Assembly (NCBI GenBank): GCA_036488875.1
Contig: DASXGW010000001.1
Location: forward strand, 248,001-312,000
Direction of reading: 5' to 3'
DNA from: Candidatus Baltobacteraceae bacterium
Lineage (GTDB): Bacteria; Vulcanimicrobiota; Vulcanimicrobiia; Vulcanimicrobiales; Vulcanimicrobiaceae
Length of the DNA: 64,000 nt
Positions 35,393 through 41,595 of the stretch are shown here, piece after piece. The number at the start of each line of letters is the position of its first letter. Position 1 is the first letter of the stretch. The notes below the pieces were generated by a model that was not told the origin of the DNA, ran no database searches, and saw nothing but the letters and a program-made list of their open reading frames with translations. Both the position numbers and the translations under genes were made by a program.

Positions 35393-35423
35393 GCGCCTGC
35401 CCTTCGACAGGCTCAGGGTGACA
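35393..35423 (+). repeat. Dispersed repeat, short form (copy 4)
   Basis: GCGCCTGCCCTTCGACAGG, then CTCAGGGTGACA: the same ends as the long copies but without the internal hairpin. It is 24 bases before the purB ATG and supplies the GTG (35418) that would otherwise extend the purB frame. Confidence 0.8.
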
Positions 35424-35447
35424 CGAGGGGGAAGGCGATTCCGTCCA

Positions 35448-36872
35448 ATGGATTCCGCCACGTACGCCTCACCGTTCTCCTGGAGATACGGTCGCGCCGA
35501 GCTTCGTTCGCTCTTTTCCGAGCAGACGCGCCGCCGGCTGTGGCGCTGCGTTTGGGTGGCGTTGGCCGAGGCGCAGGCGGCCGAAGGACTCGTCACCGAG
35601 GCCGAAGTCGCCGATCTGCGCGCGCACGCCGGTCACATCGATATCGATGCCGCGCTCGCGATCGAGCGCGAGATCCATCACGATTTAATGGCCGAAATCC
35701 GCGTGTTCGCGTCGCAGGCCAAGACCGGCGGTGCGAAGCTGCATCTCGGCGCGACGTCGATGGACGTCGAAGACACGGTCGAGACCTACCGGCTTCGCTT
35801 GGCGCTTTCGTGGATCGGCGCTTCGCTCCAGGACCTGCTGCGCGCGTTCGCCGAAAAAATTCGCGAGTACGCCCATCTCACGTGCATGGCGTTCACGCAC
35901 TTACAGCCGGCCGAACCGACGACCTTGGGCTACCGGCTTGCCGTCTACGCGCAGGATCTGACGATCGACGACGCAGCGCTGCGCTTCGCGTTTGAGAATC
36001 TGACGACCAAGGGCCTGCGCGGCGCGGTCGGCACGGCAGCCTCGTACGAGCATCTACTCGACGGTTCGGGCAAGTCGTCCGAGATCGAGCGTTACGTCTT
36101 AGGAAAATTTGGGCTGGAAGCTCGTGAGATCAGCACGCAAACGTATCCTCGCAAGCTCGACTACTTACTGCTGACGGCGCTGGCCGGGCTGGGCGCGTCG
36201 CTCTCGAAATTCGCAGCCGACGTGCGCATTCTCAGCTCGCCCGAGTTCGGCGAAGTGGCCGAGCCGTTCGGCAAAGCCCAGGTCGGCAGCTCGGCTATGC
36301 CGTTCAAGCGCAATCCGATTCTGTGCGAACGCATCGACTCGCTCGCGCGGCTGCTTGCCGGCTACAGCGACGTGGCGTGGCAGAACGCGGCCACGAACTA
36401 TTTGGAGCGCACGCTCGACGACAGCGCCAACCGCCGCACGATTCTTCCCGAAGCGATGCTGTGCGCCGACGAGCTCGTTTCGCTGGCGAAGCGCGTGATC
36501 GGCGGACTGAAGGTCAACGAGCGGCGCATCGCGCACAACCTGCGCACGTACGGTCCGTTCGCCGGCACCGAAGCCGTGATGATGGAAGCCGTGCGCTCGG
36601 GCGGCGACCGCCAGCAGGTGCACGAAACGATTCGCTCCGCCTCGATGCAGGCGTGGGAGTCGCTGGCGCGCGGCGAGGACAACCCGCTTTCGCAGCTCCT
36701 GGTGGAAGATCGCGATCTCACGTCGCGCGTCGATCCCGCCGAAATTCGCCGGTTGCTCGATCCCGGCAAGCACGTCGGTACCGCCCCGCAGCGCGCGCTA
36801 TTGCTGGCGGACAACATCGAGAACATGCAACCCTTTCCAAAGCAAGACGAGGTCCCGCTACATGTCAGCTAA
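35448..36872 (+). CDS. purB: Adenylosuccinate lyase
   Basis: 474 residues from ATG 35448 with GGGGGAAGG upstream; a GTG 30 bases earlier is in frame but lies inside a dispersed repeat. Cleaves SAICAR to AICAR and adenylosuccinate to AMP. Fumarase/aspartase superfamily: GATSMDVEDTVETYR, AFTHLQPAEPTT, and the signature GSSAMPFKRNPILCERIDSL with the catalytic Ser loop. Sequence features (short LRAHAGHIDIDAALA start, C-terminal LLLADNIENM) are close to the animal/B. subtilis branches. First gene of the purine cluster. Confidence 0.93.
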   Translation: MDSATYASPFSWRYGRAELRSLFSEQTRRRLWRCVWVALAEAQAAEGLVTEAEVADLRAHAGHIDIDAALAIEREIHHDLMAEIRVFASQAKTGGAKLHLGATSMDVEDTVETYRLRLALSWIGASLQDLLRAFAEKIREYAHLTCMAFTHLQPAEPTTLGYRLAVYAQDLTIDDAALRFAFENLTTKGLRGAVGTAASYEHLLDGSGKSSEIERYVLGKFGLEAREISTQTYPRKLDYLLLTALAGLGASLSKFAADVRILSSPEFGEVAEPFGKAQVGSSAMPFKRNPILCERIDSLARLLAGYSDVAWQNAATNYLERTLDDSANRRTILPEAMLCADELVSLAKRVIGGLKVNERRIAHNLRTYGPFAGTEAVMMEAVRSGGDRQQVHETIRSASMQAWESLARGEDNPLSQLLVEDRDLTSRVDPAEIRRLLDPGKHVGTAPQRALLLADNIENMQPFPKQDEVPLHVS

Positions 36873-36999
36873 AGAGGTAACGATCGTTTGGGGCGCCCTA
36901 GGGGAATCACCGCCGGACGATACGTTTATGCGCCCCATGGTATGGGGGCCCCACGAAGTGGGGGGCGCGGAGGCCGGGCCGGAGCGCCTTCAAAAATGA
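36862..36999 (+). CDS. Possible 45-residue ORF bridging purB and purC
   Basis: ATG 36862 lies inside the end of purB (11-base overlap) and the TGA at 36997-36999 overlaps the purC ATG (ATGA). Product starts MSAKEVTIVWGALGESPPDD and is Gly/Pro/Trp-rich later. The region also contains two small hairpins (36933-36947 and CCCCAC-GAA-GTGGGG at 36949-36963), which could instead be a transcript control element. Either it is a real coupled small protein, a leader peptide for purC, or chance in GC-rich DNA. Confidence 0.4.
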   Translation: MSAKEVTIVWGALGESPPDDTFMRPMVWGPHEVGGAEAGPERLQK

Positions 37000-38195
37000 A
37001 TAAGGGTTTAGAAATCGCGCGCGGCAAGACCAAAGTGCTCTACGAGCACGCCGGTCAACCGGATCAGCTCGTCGTCGCGCAGACCGATAATATTTCGGCC
37101 GGCGACGGGGCGCGCCGCAACGAGATCGCCGGTAAAGGGCGCCTCGCCGCGCAGACCACGGCGCGCGTCTTCCGTTTGCTCAATCTCTGCGGGCTGCCGA
37201 CGCACTATCTCAACGGCGGTGAGGACGACGATCAGAACGAGATGGTCGTGCGCCGCTGCAACATGATCCCGCTGGAAGTCGTGACGCGGGGTGTGGCCGC
37301 CGGCTCGTTCGTCAAGCGCAATCCCAACGTGCAGCGCGGCATGCTGCTGGTTCCGCGGCTTACCGAGTTCTTTCTCAAAGACGACGCTAACCACGATCCG
37401 ATGATCTCGCCCGACGAAATCATCTCGCGCGGCATCGCGCAGCCGCACGAAGTGGCCGCGATGACCGAGATGGCCCGTTTGACGTTCGACATCCTCACGC
37501 ACGCGTGGCGCCGCCGCGACACGCTGCTGGTCGATTTGAAGATCGAGTTCGGCCGTTTGGCCGGCGGCGAGAATCAGGGGCAGCTCGTTATCGCCGACGT
37601 CATCGACAACGACTCGTGGCGAATCTGGCCGCAGGGGCGCGAGGATCTGATGCTCGACAAGCAGATCTATCGCAATCTGCAGAGCGTCGACGATGCCGCG
37701 CTGGCCGACGTCAAGCGCGCCTACGAAAAGGTTGCCGATCTGGTCGGTACGTTTCCGGTGATGCGTCCCGGAATGGTCGCGGTGCTGGCGGATTCCACTT
37801 CGCAAGTCGAGCGGGTCAACGAGGTGGTGCAAGCCATCGGACAACTGGGACTGCCGACGGTGCGCCACGTCGCGAGTCCGGCAACGACCCCAGGCTACGT
37901 GCTGCAGCTCATCGGGCAGCTCGAAGCGACGTTCGCGCGGCTGATTTTCGTCAGCGTCGGCGAGAACGATCTGCTGCGGACGATGCTCGACGCAGCCTCG
38001 TCATCGCCGGTGCTCGATGGAAGGGCCGCGACCAATCAGCTCACGATGCAGTGCGCGAAGCTCTTCGGGCTCGAGGATACGGTGCTCTACGGGCGGACGC
38101 TGCTGATGCAAGCCAACGCGCGTTCGAGCGTGGTCCATGCCGACGCGGCTTTACAGCAGCCTCAGCATTTAATGCAGGGCGCCGTTCTTGGTTAA
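36996..38195 (+). CDS. purC: PAICS-like fusion: SAICAR synthetase with degenerate PurE-like domain
   Basis: 399 residues from ATG 36996; the frame is open to 36888 but the family begins here. Residues 1-250 are SAICAR synthetase (GKTKVLYEH, NISAGDGARRNE, RGVAAGSFVKRNP, ELFF-like EFFLKDDANHDP, LLVDLKIEFGR, ADVIDNDSWRIWP), closest in wording to animal PAICS. Residues 258-399 align with the class II PurE domain of PAICS, but GSTSD is ADSTSQ (265-270), SAHKGP/SAHRTP is ASPATTP (293-299), and the Gly-rich AVAGRSNGLG region is VSVGENDLL (319-327). So carboxylation of AIR by this half is doubtful; a structural or regulatory role is inferred. No other purE or purK is in the window. Confidence 0.88.
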   Translation: MNKGLEIARGKTKVLYEHAGQPDQLVVAQTDNISAGDGARRNEIAGKGRLAAQTTARVFRLLNLCGLPTHYLNGGEDDDQNEMVVRRCNMIPLEVVTRGVAAGSFVKRNPNVQRGMLLVPRLTEFFLKDDANHDPMISPDEIISRGIAQPHEVAAMTEMARLTFDILTHAWRRRDTLLVDLKIEFGRLAGGENQGQLVIADVIDNDSWRIWPQGREDLMLDKQIYRNLQSVDDAALADVKRAYEKVADLVGTFPVMRPGMVAVLADSTSQVERVNEVVQAIGQLGLPTVRHVASPATTPGYVLQLIGQLEATFARLIFVSVGENDLLRTMLDAASSSPVLDGRAATNQLTMQCAKLFGLEDTVLYGRTLLMQANARSSVVHADAALQQPQHLMQGAVLG

Positions 38196-40419
38196 TCAGG
38201 CGCCCGTCAACGTCGCGCTGCGTAAAGACGAACTCGAGCGCATCGCGCAACGCCTAGGCCGGGAGCCGACCGCCGCGGAGCTGCACGCGTTCGACGCACA
38301 GTGGAGCGAGCATTGCAGCTATAAGTCGAGCCGCCATCACCTCAAGAAGCTTCCGACGAGCGGCCCGGACGTGATATTGGGACCGGCCGAAGATTCCGGA
38401 ATTCTCTATCTCGGCGAGCACGACGGCGAGCGATACGGCGTCGTGATCGCGCACGAGTCGCACAACCATCCTTCGCAGGTCGTGCCCTTCGAGGGTGCGG
38501 CGACCGGTATCGGCGGGATCGTGCGCGACGTGCTGTGCATGGGCGCCGAAGTCGTCGCGGTCGCCGATCCGCTGCGCTTCGGACGAATCGACGACCCCGA
38601 CTCGCATCAGCGTTCGGTCGCGGTCGGCGTCGTCGACGGCATCGCCGCGTACGGCAACGCGATCGGCGTGCCGAACCTCGCGGGCGACGTATATTTCGAC
38701 GAAAGCTTTGACGACAATTGCCTCGTCAACGTCGTCGCGCTCGGCATCGTCAAAGAATCCGAGATCGTTCACTCGTTTGCGCCGAAGGATGCCGAGGGAT
38801 GGGACATCGTGCTCGTCGGCAAGGCCACCGACGCCAGCGGCTTCGGCGGGGCCTCGTTCTCGTCGCTCACCCTCGACACCGAAGACGAAGAAGCGAACAA
38901 AGGCGCGGTTCAAGTTCCCGATCCGTTTTTGAAAAACGTTTTGATGCGCGCGAGCTATCGCGCCTTCGCCTATTTACGCGATCATAACATCGAAGCCGGC
39001 TTTAAGGATCTTGGCGCGGGTGGCGTGATGGGCTGTTCGGCCGAGATCGTTTCCAGCGGCGGATTCGGCGCCGACATCAATCTCGACGAGGTCAACGTCG
39101 CGATCGAGAACATGCCGCCGGAAGTGATCGCCGTCGGCGAAACGCAGGAACGCCTGCTCTGGGTGTTGCCGCCGCACGTGACGCCCGAGATCCTGCGCAT
39201 CTATAACGACCAATACACGTTGCCGCAGATCGCCTACAACGCGCGCGCAACGATCGTCGGCCGCGTGACGCGCGAAAAGAAATACGTGCTTCGTCATCGC
39301 GGACACGTTGTGATGGACGTCGACATCGATTTTCTTACCGGCTCGATTCGCGACGAGCTGCCGTTTACGGAGTTGCAGCCGGCGGTGCTGCGCGACGAGG
39401 ACATCGTCTATCCGCAGCTTGCGACCGACGAGATCGTGGATCTGCTGCCACGCGTGCTGGCACACCAGGCGGTTTGCTCCCGAGAACCGCTCTATCGCCG
39501 TTACGACGCGGTCGTGCGCGGCTTGACGGTGATTCCGCGCGGCGCCGGCGAGGCCGGTGTGTTTGCTGCCGTGCGCGGCGGCAAGCTCGGCGTCGCGCTG
39601 TCCGTCGCCGGAAATCCGCGCTACGGACGGCTCAATCCGCAGCGCGCGGCGGAGCTCGCGGTCGTCGAAGCGGCGTGCAAGGTCTACGCGACCGGCGCGC
39701 GGCCGATCGGCTTGACGGATTGCTTGAACTTCGGCAATCCCCGCAAGATCGAGCAGTATAGCGAGTTCGTCGCAGCTATCGATGGCTTGGGCGCTGCCGC
39801 ACGCGAGCTCGGCCTGGCGTTCGTGTCGGGAAACGTGAGTCTGTATAACGAGTCGACCGCCGGCATGGCGGTCGCCGCGTCAGCGATCGTCGCGTGCGTC
39901 GGCGCGCTCGACGATCTGGCAAAGACGATTACCCCCGGAGTCAAGCAAGCCGGAAACGCGCTCTTCGTTGTCGGCAACGTCAGCCCCGGATTTGGCGGAA
40001 CGGTGTTCGCCGAGCTGCTTGGCAACGATGACGACAACGTGCCGATGTTGGAGTATCCGCAACTGCGCGTCGACCTCGAGTTCCTTCGCGCCGCAATGCG
40101 CGAGGGTGTCGTTCGATCCTGCACGCCGGTTGGGGCGGGCGGAACGCTGGCGGCGATCGCGCGGGCGCTCTTTGCCGCGCGCGGCGCGGGCCGTTCCCTC
40201 GGTGCGGAGGTCGACGGAGAAGCCTATTTCGACGAAACGCCCGGTTTCGTCGTTGAAGTCGACGACCAGGAACTCTTCCTGCGGCTCGCCGGCGCCGCTA
40301 CGGTTCGCCGCGTCGGAACGGTGTCGAAGGCCGCGCATTTCGTCATCAACGGCGAGTCGCTGCACGTCGAGGATTTGTACCGGGTTTGGTCGGCGCCGCT
40401 GGCTGAGGTGTATCCGTAA
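38188..40419 (+). CDS. purL: FGAM synthase large (small-type) subunit PurL
   Basis: 743 residues, TTG start overlapping purC by 8 bases. Converts FGAR to FGAM with ATP and ammonia. Length and order match small PurL of the B. subtilis type: FDAQWSEHCSYKSSRHHLK, HESHNHPSQVVPFEGAATGIGGIVRD, PNLAGDVYFDESF, GKATDASGFGGASF, LGAGGVMGCSAEI, CLNFGNPRK, SGNVSLYNES. Small PurL needs PurQ for ammonia and PurS for assembly; both follow. Confidence 0.95.
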   Translation: MVNQAPVNVALRKDELERIAQRLGREPTAAELHAFDAQWSEHCSYKSSRHHLKKLPTSGPDVILGPAEDSGILYLGEHDGERYGVVIAHESHNHPSQVVPFEGAATGIGGIVRDVLCMGAEVVAVADPLRFGRIDDPDSHQRSVAVGVVDGIAAYGNAIGVPNLAGDVYFDESFDDNCLVNVVALGIVKESEIVHSFAPKDAEGWDIVLVGKATDASGFGGASFSSLTLDTEDEEANKGAVQVPDPFLKNVLMRASYRAFAYLRDHNIEAGFKDLGAGGVMGCSAEIVSSGGFGADINLDEVNVAIENMPPEVIAVGETQERLLWVLPPHVTPEILRIYNDQYTLPQIAYNARATIVGRVTREKKYVLRHRGHVVMDVDIDFLTGSIRDELPFTELQPAVLRDEDIVYPQLATDEIVDLLPRVLAHQAVCSREPLYRRYDAVVRGLTVIPRGAGEAGVFAAVRGGKLGVALSVAGNPRYGRLNPQRAAELAVVEAACKVYATGARPIGLTDCLNFGNPRKIEQYSEFVAAIDGLGAAARELGLAFVSGNVSLYNESTAGMAVAASAIVACVGALDDLAKTITPGVKQAGNALFVVGNVSPGFGGTVFAELLGNDDDNVPMLEYPQLRVDLEFLRAAMREGVVRSCTPVGAGGTLAAIARALFAARGAGRSLGAEVDGEAYFDETPGFVVEVDDQELFLRLAGAATVRRVGTVSKAAHFVINGESLHVEDLYRVWSAPLAEVYP

Positions 40420-40420
40420 G

Positions 40421-41188
40421 ATGAGCGGGAAGATCGCGGTTCCGATTTTCCCCGGAACGAACTCCGAAAACGAAACGGTGGCGCTGCTGCGCGACTGCGG
40501 CGGCGACGCCGAGCTCGTCCACTGGTCTGCGGCTGAGACGTTGGGGCGGTACGACGCCTACGTCCTCTCCGGCGGATTCGCGTACGAGGATCGCATTCGC
40601 GCCGGCGCGATTGCCGCGCACGACCGGATCATGGATTTCGTCATCGAGGGCGCGCAGAACGGTAAACTCGTGTTCGGCGTCTGCAACGGCGCGCAGATCG
40701 TACTCGAAGCGGGTCTGGTTCCCGGTACCGGGGCGATACGCCGTCCCACCGCCGCGTTTACGCGCAACGCGCCCGAACCGCATTTCGTGTGTCGTCACGT
40801 GTATTTAAAGATCGCGATCGATCCGTCGCGCAGCGCGATTACGGCGTCGCTGCCTAAAGACGCGCTCGTGCCGGCGTGGCAGGCCAACGGTGAAGGCCGG
40901 CTCGCTGCGACGCCCGAGCACTTGCAAGAAATCGTTGACGGCAGTCACCTGGCGTTCGTCTATGCGTTTGCCGACGGTACGGCTTCGCAGTCGGCATCCC
41001 CGAACGGCTCGGCGCTCAACTGCGGCGGGTTGATCAATCGCGCGGGCAACGTGCTGGCGATCATGCCGCATCCCGAACGCGACGCGTGGAACTTCAATCA
41101 CCTCGATCGCCGCGAGGGCAAAGACGTGCTCGCGCCGTCGGGCGGCGCGATGCTCTTCAAGAGTTTCGTGAAAGCGGTCAACGGTTGA
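40421..41188 (+). CDS. purQ: FGAM synthase glutaminase subunit PurQ
   Basis: 255 residues from ATG 40421, one base after purL. Class I glutamine amidotransferase that gives ammonia to PurL. VPIFPGTNSENETVALLRD at the N-terminus, YVLSGGFAYEDRIRAGAIAA, nucleophile Cys in GVCNGAQI, and MPHPERD with the catalytic His and Glu. It is slightly longer than the 227-residue B. subtilis PurQ. Overlaps the PurS-like gene (TTGA). Confidence 0.95.
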   Translation: MSGKIAVPIFPGTNSENETVALLRDCGGDAELVHWSAAETLGRYDAYVLSGGFAYEDRIRAGAIAAHDRIMDFVIEGAQNGKLVFGVCNGAQIVLEAGLVPGTGAIRRPTAAFTRNAPEPHFVCRHVYLKIAIDPSRSAITASLPKDALVPAWQANGEGRLAATPEHLQEIVDGSHLAFVYAFADGTASQSASPNGSALNCGGLINRAGNVLAIMPHPERDAWNFNHLDRREGKDVLAPSGGAMLFKSFVKAVNG

Positions 41189-41595
41189 GCGAGCAAGTCA
41201 TTGCCATTGGATTGAAGATTCCCGACAACAGCGCGTACACCGCGATGGTGACCTTGCGCCGGCTCGGCATCGACGTGGCGCGCGTCGAGCGCAACGATAT
41301 CCTGCGTTTCGATAACGAGCAGGATCCGGTCCAATTGCGCGCCCATATCGAGCGCGACGAATCCGTTTTCAACCCGAACAAGCATCGCATCAGCCTATTG
41401 ACCAGCCTCAAGCCGAGGCCGGGCGAAGTGTGGATCGAGACGGTGGGCGGCGAGACAACCGTTGCGGGAATGCCGGCCCGGCGCTACGTTGGCTGGCGGC
41501 TCTTCAGCGGCGATTCGCACGCGTCGCGTGCGGTGCTCGACGCGGCGGTCGAATCGCTGCTCTGCAATCCGGCAATCGAAAGGGCAATTTACTAA
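41185..41595 (+). CDS. purS: Divergent PurS-like protein with a central insertion
   Basis: 136 residues, TTG start overlapping purQ by 4 bases. Typical PurS is about 80 residues. Here the N-terminal 40 residues (VIAIGLKIPDNSAYTAMVTL, then GIDVARVERNDILRF) fit the first beta-alpha-beta part, and the C-terminal ASRAVLDAAVESLLCNPAIE matches the conserved helix ending LLANPVIEDY. About 60 residues with two Trp lie between (50-110), partly with a 'PGEVWIETVGGETT' beta hairpin. Location directly behind small PurL and PurQ, which require PurS, supports the call. The role of the insertion is unknown. Confidence 0.65.
   Translation: MSEQVIAIGLKIPDNSAYTAMVTLRRLGIDVARVERNDILRFDNEQDPVQLRAHIERDESVFNPNKHRISLLTSLKPRPGEVWIETVGGETTVAGMPARRYVGWRLFSGDSHASRAVLDAAVESLLCNPAIERAIY

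Follow-up and report, generated by a model that had tools for sequence, protein, structure and literature searches.

The window, as the whole 64,000-nucleotide stretch of DNA analysed here is called, contains a cluster of pur genes (Table 1), the first of which is purB. Next comes a gene in which purC and purE are fused, and the start of purL overlaps its 3' end. The host group comprises little-known soil bacteria. Named public records among the relatives belong mostly to Candidatus Eremiobacterota (WPS-2), to which the window genome is also assigned. Three records titled Rhodospirillales or Proteobacteria also carry an Eremiobacterota-type PurC-PurE fusion (L197, CAJCIN010000198.1; L203, JANYGA010000291.1; L220, JAJPHJ010000013.1); these are probably mislabelled bins.

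Table 1. Features of the pur cluster, in positions of the window.
Feature	Position	Strand	Basis
purB (adenylosuccinate lyase), first gene in the cluster	35418..36872	+	TIGR00928 372.7 bits, above cut-off
purC-purE fusion gene	36996-38195	+	ORF, 399 aa
PurC (SAICAR synthetase) half, residues 1-252	36996..37751	+	PF01259, PurC-structure fold match
Degenerate PurE-type domain, residues 258-387	37767..38156	+	PF00731 23.1 bits over residues 261-340; AlphaFold2 pLDDT about 90
SAHK position, S-P-A-T in the window	37875..37886	+	Alignment; Ala296 replaces general base His303, Thr297 replaces phosphate Lys304
AGRSNGL substrate-loop position, -GENDLL in the window	37959..37976	+	Alignment
Deletion point, about 25 residues, between residues 340 and 341	38015..38016	+	Alignments with intact fused relatives (CPP...GGMDILSSL.LPSG...)
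Long conserved C-terminal helix, residues 362-387	38079..38156	+	f1 alignment, helix in model
purL (small FGAM synthase subunit)	38188..40419	+	TIGR01736 630.9 bits, above cut-off
purQ, start approximate	40418..41188	+	TIGR01737 179.6 bits, above cut-off
Divergent tandem PurS-like gene, start approximate	41188..41595	+	PurS match, 13.5 bits only

The PurC half is a SAICAR synthetase domain with an intact synthetase site. PF01259 matches residues 7-234 (E 5e-59, 200.2 bits against a cut-off of 20), and the motifs GKTK, SAGDG, DLKIEFG and ADVIDNDSWR are preserved, being invariant or nearly so across 45 relatives. PurC structures match the N-terminal half of the predicted model with Z about 33. 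The closest solved sequences to the whole protein are animal PAICS chains (4ja0, 3e-64; human 2h31, 4e-55). The description "animal-PAICS-like" in the initial annotation is correct as to sequence similarity, but this is a bacterial fusion, one that other branches of the phylum share.

Active site and predicted fold of the PurE-type domain

The C-terminal half scores under the curated cut-offs of both PurE models. The PF00731 match is confined to the first 81 of the 148 profile positions and falls short of the Pfam cut-off of 30 bits, and TIGR01162 (purE) gives 25.1 bits against a cut-off of 149.6. The active-site residues of human PAICS (PMC9376930) were used as reference numbering for the comparison of sites. 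Six of them are replaced in the window protein (D277>Q, H303>A, K304>T, R331>E, S332>N, N333>D), as is Gly273 (G273>D); S274, S276 and S301 are retained. The set characteristic of class II AIR carboxylases (His303, Lys304, AGRSN and the Ser/Asp of GSxSD) is thus not preserved, and both the SAHK strand and the substrate loop are replaced, as the initial annotation had read them. That annotation did not mention the deletion of about 25 residues, which falls after the PVI strand and before the helix that follows it. In an intact PurE fold this segment forms one helix and one strand; four strands are present in the predicted PurE domain of the window.

Mutation of the His abolishes activity in human and chicken PAICS and in E. 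coli PurE (PMC9376930). Judged from its residues, the fused domain is almost certainly catalytically inactive and has no plausible carboxylase site, in agreement with the suspicion that it no longer carboxylates AIR.

AlphaFold2 predicts the full-length protein with mean pLDDT 90.5 and pTM 0.87 from a 45-sequence alignment, which included relatives with an intact PurE site. The PurE domain alone, without an alignment, reaches pLDDT 42, which counts against the evidence for a retained fold. The full-length model superposes on human octameric PAICS (6yb8) over 385 residues with Z 44.5 and rmsd 2.2, so that a C-terminal PurE fold in the PAICS domain arrangement is predicted to be retained. Among standalone PurE folds, 3rg8 from Treponema denticola, a class II PurE, comes closest to the C-terminal part, with 132 residues aligned at Z 17.8 and rmsd 1.4; the T. 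denticola protein is an active AIR carboxylase, whereas the window domain has no active site.

Replacement genes and graded states among relatives

The expectation that another AIR carboxylase must exist is confirmed in the window genome. A standalone, intact class I purE (G000:C4:489706-490143; AIRC 213.6 bits, TIGR01162 205 bits) has the class I motifs SAHRMP and AGGAAHLPG and is directly followed by purK (386 bits, above cut-off). Conversion of AIR to N5-CAIR and then to CAIR by PurK and PurE is therefore possible, and the fused domain is dispensable for this chemistry. The pair is present in nearly all genomes of the window's family (f1). G025 (96% complete) and G047 carry the degenerate fusion, but neither purE nor purK was found there; assembly gaps are possible. 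Weaker AIRC matches (39-66 bits), present in many genomes, resemble LarB, judging by score and length.

Among the 99 f1 genomes, 89 gave a match, and the domain is present in 82 of these, representing 36 of 38 genera; the same degenerate domain in so many genomes is due neither to chance nor to an assembly error. A repeated search of the ten matchless genomes with PF01259 gave no PurC match in nine and a weak one in G092, which indicates that most of these assemblies lack the locus. G022 contains fragments only. In the genus g35, six genomes encode PurC alone, ending just before the FPVMRPG linker (L038-L041, L223, L225); the seventh, G080, has PurC alone together with a fused copy that contains a stop, lies on a short contig and resembles genus g7. 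As PurC exists in g35 without the domain, PurC has no strict need of it.

The losses are shared by relatives: in an alignment of 33 f1 sequences, His occupies the H303 position in two, the R331 and N333 residues are found in none, and the segment of about 25 residues is gone. Family f2, from the same order (four genomes), represents a milder state. Its fusions score 95-106 bits with AIRC and retain the segment, the catalytic His is Q or L in all four, and part of the substrate loop is lost too; standalone purE is present in 4/4 genomes and purK in 3/4. Family f3, from the same class, has 13 fusions with AIRC scores of 104-119 bits and motifs of the SAHKTP, AGRSN and LPSG type. A search of 14 f3 genomes found neither a canonical standalone purE nor purK, and the fusion should be the enzyme that acts as carboxylase there.

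A tree built from the PurC part alone unites f1, f2 and g35 in a single clade (99/100) separate from f3, with g35 nested among f1. This placement makes stepwise loss from an intact state, first of the His, then of the site and last of the domain, the simplest order of events. A second, independent degeneration is indicated in f13, a distant branch of the phylum, where G133 keeps the site and the sister sequences of G131 and G132 (100/96), placed beside this intact relative, lack SAHK, AGRSN and the same segment. The degenerate f13 fusions are L113 (G132) and L115 (G131); the f13 case relies mainly on G132, because G131 has a long branch and an unusual PurC as well. In G132, rated 100% complete, no canonical purE or purK was found, only a LarB-like AIRC match.

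Genome G109 (loci L114 and L117) has an intact fused PurE domain together with a class I purE-purK pair, and could represent either redundancy at an early stage or genes gained recently. Coexistence of both intact systems indicates that redundancy need not lead to loss.

As for PurS, PF02700 at a threshold of E 0.001 gave no match in 103 genomes of the window's order. This absence suggested that the dead PurE domain had taken over the place of PurS. The suggestion was rejected, since a divergent tandem PurS-like gene follows purQ, in g35 too. Homologues of this gene lie 3' of purQ across the order and the class, and class relatives have PurS matches at the same place, two of them above the Pfam cut-off. 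In a profile comparison, the N-terminal half of its product matches PurS with E 1.5e-4. Two PurS-like halves within one ORF are clearest in the f3 loci L102 and L103. By position and profile similarity, the product of this gene is probably the PurS that would otherwise be lacking. Standard PurS models fail throughout the order, and annotation pipelines will call PurS absent.

Possible role of the retained domain

The domain is under purifying selection. Its dN/dS is 0.07-0.24 in closer pairs (the comparison with the sister species gives 0.106) and rises to 0.52 at most in diverged pairs, well below 1 in nearly all sampled pairs; these ratios are rough, as dS is close to saturation in many pairs. 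The ratio of domain dN to PurC dN is 1.3-2.7 in most f1 pairs versus 1.1-1.6 in f3, and the domain is thus constrained, though it evolves faster than PurC. Of the positions invariant in f3, f1 retains a fraction of 0.30 in the active site and 0.50 elsewhere in the domain, compared with 0.83 in PurC. The difference between the site and the rest of the domain is modest (permutation p 0.046) and points to stronger decay at the active site. Residues 258-387 include 13 positions invariant over 33 f1 sequences. In the C-terminal helix, G366, R367 and R376 are found in 33/33, T362 in 32/33, Q372 and D383 in 31/33. Seven residues (P254, R257, R290, F313, R315, L370 and N374) have become fixed, or nearly so, in f1, with other or mixed residues in f3; they favour a new role over drift.

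The explanation we consider most probable, with somewhat better than even confidence, is that the protein descends from a PurC-PurE fusion of the PAICS type and that its PurE half now serves assembly instead of catalysis, as a pseudoenzyme scaffold for PurC. In the class ancestor, the fused class II AIR carboxylase would have been functional. The line from which the window's order arose would then have gained, or alone retained, class I purE-purK, with CAIR synthesized from bicarbonate and ATP. The fused site could thereby become dispensable, losing first the general base (the f2 state) and then the loop and the helix-strand segment. The remaining domain would have been kept as a link between PurC subunits, like the PurE core in octameric PAICS, and acquired the newly fixed residues. 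Human PAICS is an octamer (PMC9376930), as is E. coli PurE (PMC11451730); by analogy, a PurE fold devoid of its site would most simply serve to link PurC subunits into an oligomer, to the benefit of PurC. The proposal of the initial annotation that the domain holds the complex together would fit such a role. Points against this reading are the lack of the domain in g35, the two intact systems of G109, and the degenerate fusions of G025, G047 and G132, in whose genomes neither purE nor purK was found.

As the main alternative, the dead domain could act as a docking platform that binds class I PurE (in mixed octamers) or PurK and places CAIR formation close to PurC, so that CAIR is passed to PurC. 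The predicted retention of the PurE fold, the coincidence of degeneration with purE-purK within the order, and a two-hybrid screen in E. coli in which PurK, PurE and PurC are central in the pur interaction network (PMC10912719) are in keeping with this. However, the domain is derived from class II while the partner PurE belongs to class I, degeneration also took place in G132, where no purE was found, and g35 has purE and mostly purK yet no domain, which makes docking rather unlikely as the main function.

Regulation of PurC through nucleotide or purine intermediate binding in the old pocket, also raised in the initial annotation, is considerably less probable. S294 (human S301) is kept in 31/33 and G322 (human G330) in 29/33 f1 sequences, and D/E is fixed at the Gly273 position; however, the human PAICS contacts to the phosphate and ribose of AIR (S274, S276, D277, K304, R331) are unconserved across f1, and a segment of the fold is deleted. 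Equally improbable is a functionless relic in decay, on its way out as in g35. The dN of up to about 2.7 times that of PurC and the loss in g35 could be read in this way, but the low dN/dS, the invariant and newly fixed residues and the presence of the domain in 36 of 38 genera argue against it. That the domain is still an AIR carboxylase with substituted residues is hardly credible, even if the PurE fold is kept as predicted, as its sole general base is gone, the His mutants cited above are inactive and no conserved substitute occurs at the His position.

The scaffold reading can be set beside known systems. Animal PAICS (ADE2; human 6yb8, and 4ja0) shares with the window protein the PurC-PurE order, the fold and its arrangement, about 30-35% identity and an intact PurC half, whereas the window protein lacks the six site residues and about 25 residues, and CAIR is provided by a separate PurE-PurK. 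A precedent for a divergent, putatively structural PurE-like domain is the PurE-PurE' double protein of Methanobacteria, in which such a domain has been proposed to play a structural part that assembly depends on (PMC3261824); that protein, however, joins one PurE domain to another and not to PurC, and which one is catalytic is unsettled. Among the papers searched, none combines Eremiobacterota with purine biosynthesis.

The chances appear even that conversion of a PAICS fusion into PurC plus scaffold took place independently on at least two occasions, both times through loss of one and the same helix-strand segment and set of active-site parts, with an ordered record left beside the replacement pathway; the dead domain may in addition recruit PurE-PurK. 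Automatic annotation of the window protein as a bifunctional PurC/PurE would be incorrect. The families clearly display, step by step, the conversion of an enzyme domain of central metabolism into a pseudoenzyme: the site is complete in f3, without His in f2 and gone in f1, and the domain is dropped in g35. The replacement genes are visible, and there is a second independent case; this record lets retention of the PAICS PurE core for assembly only be put to the test.
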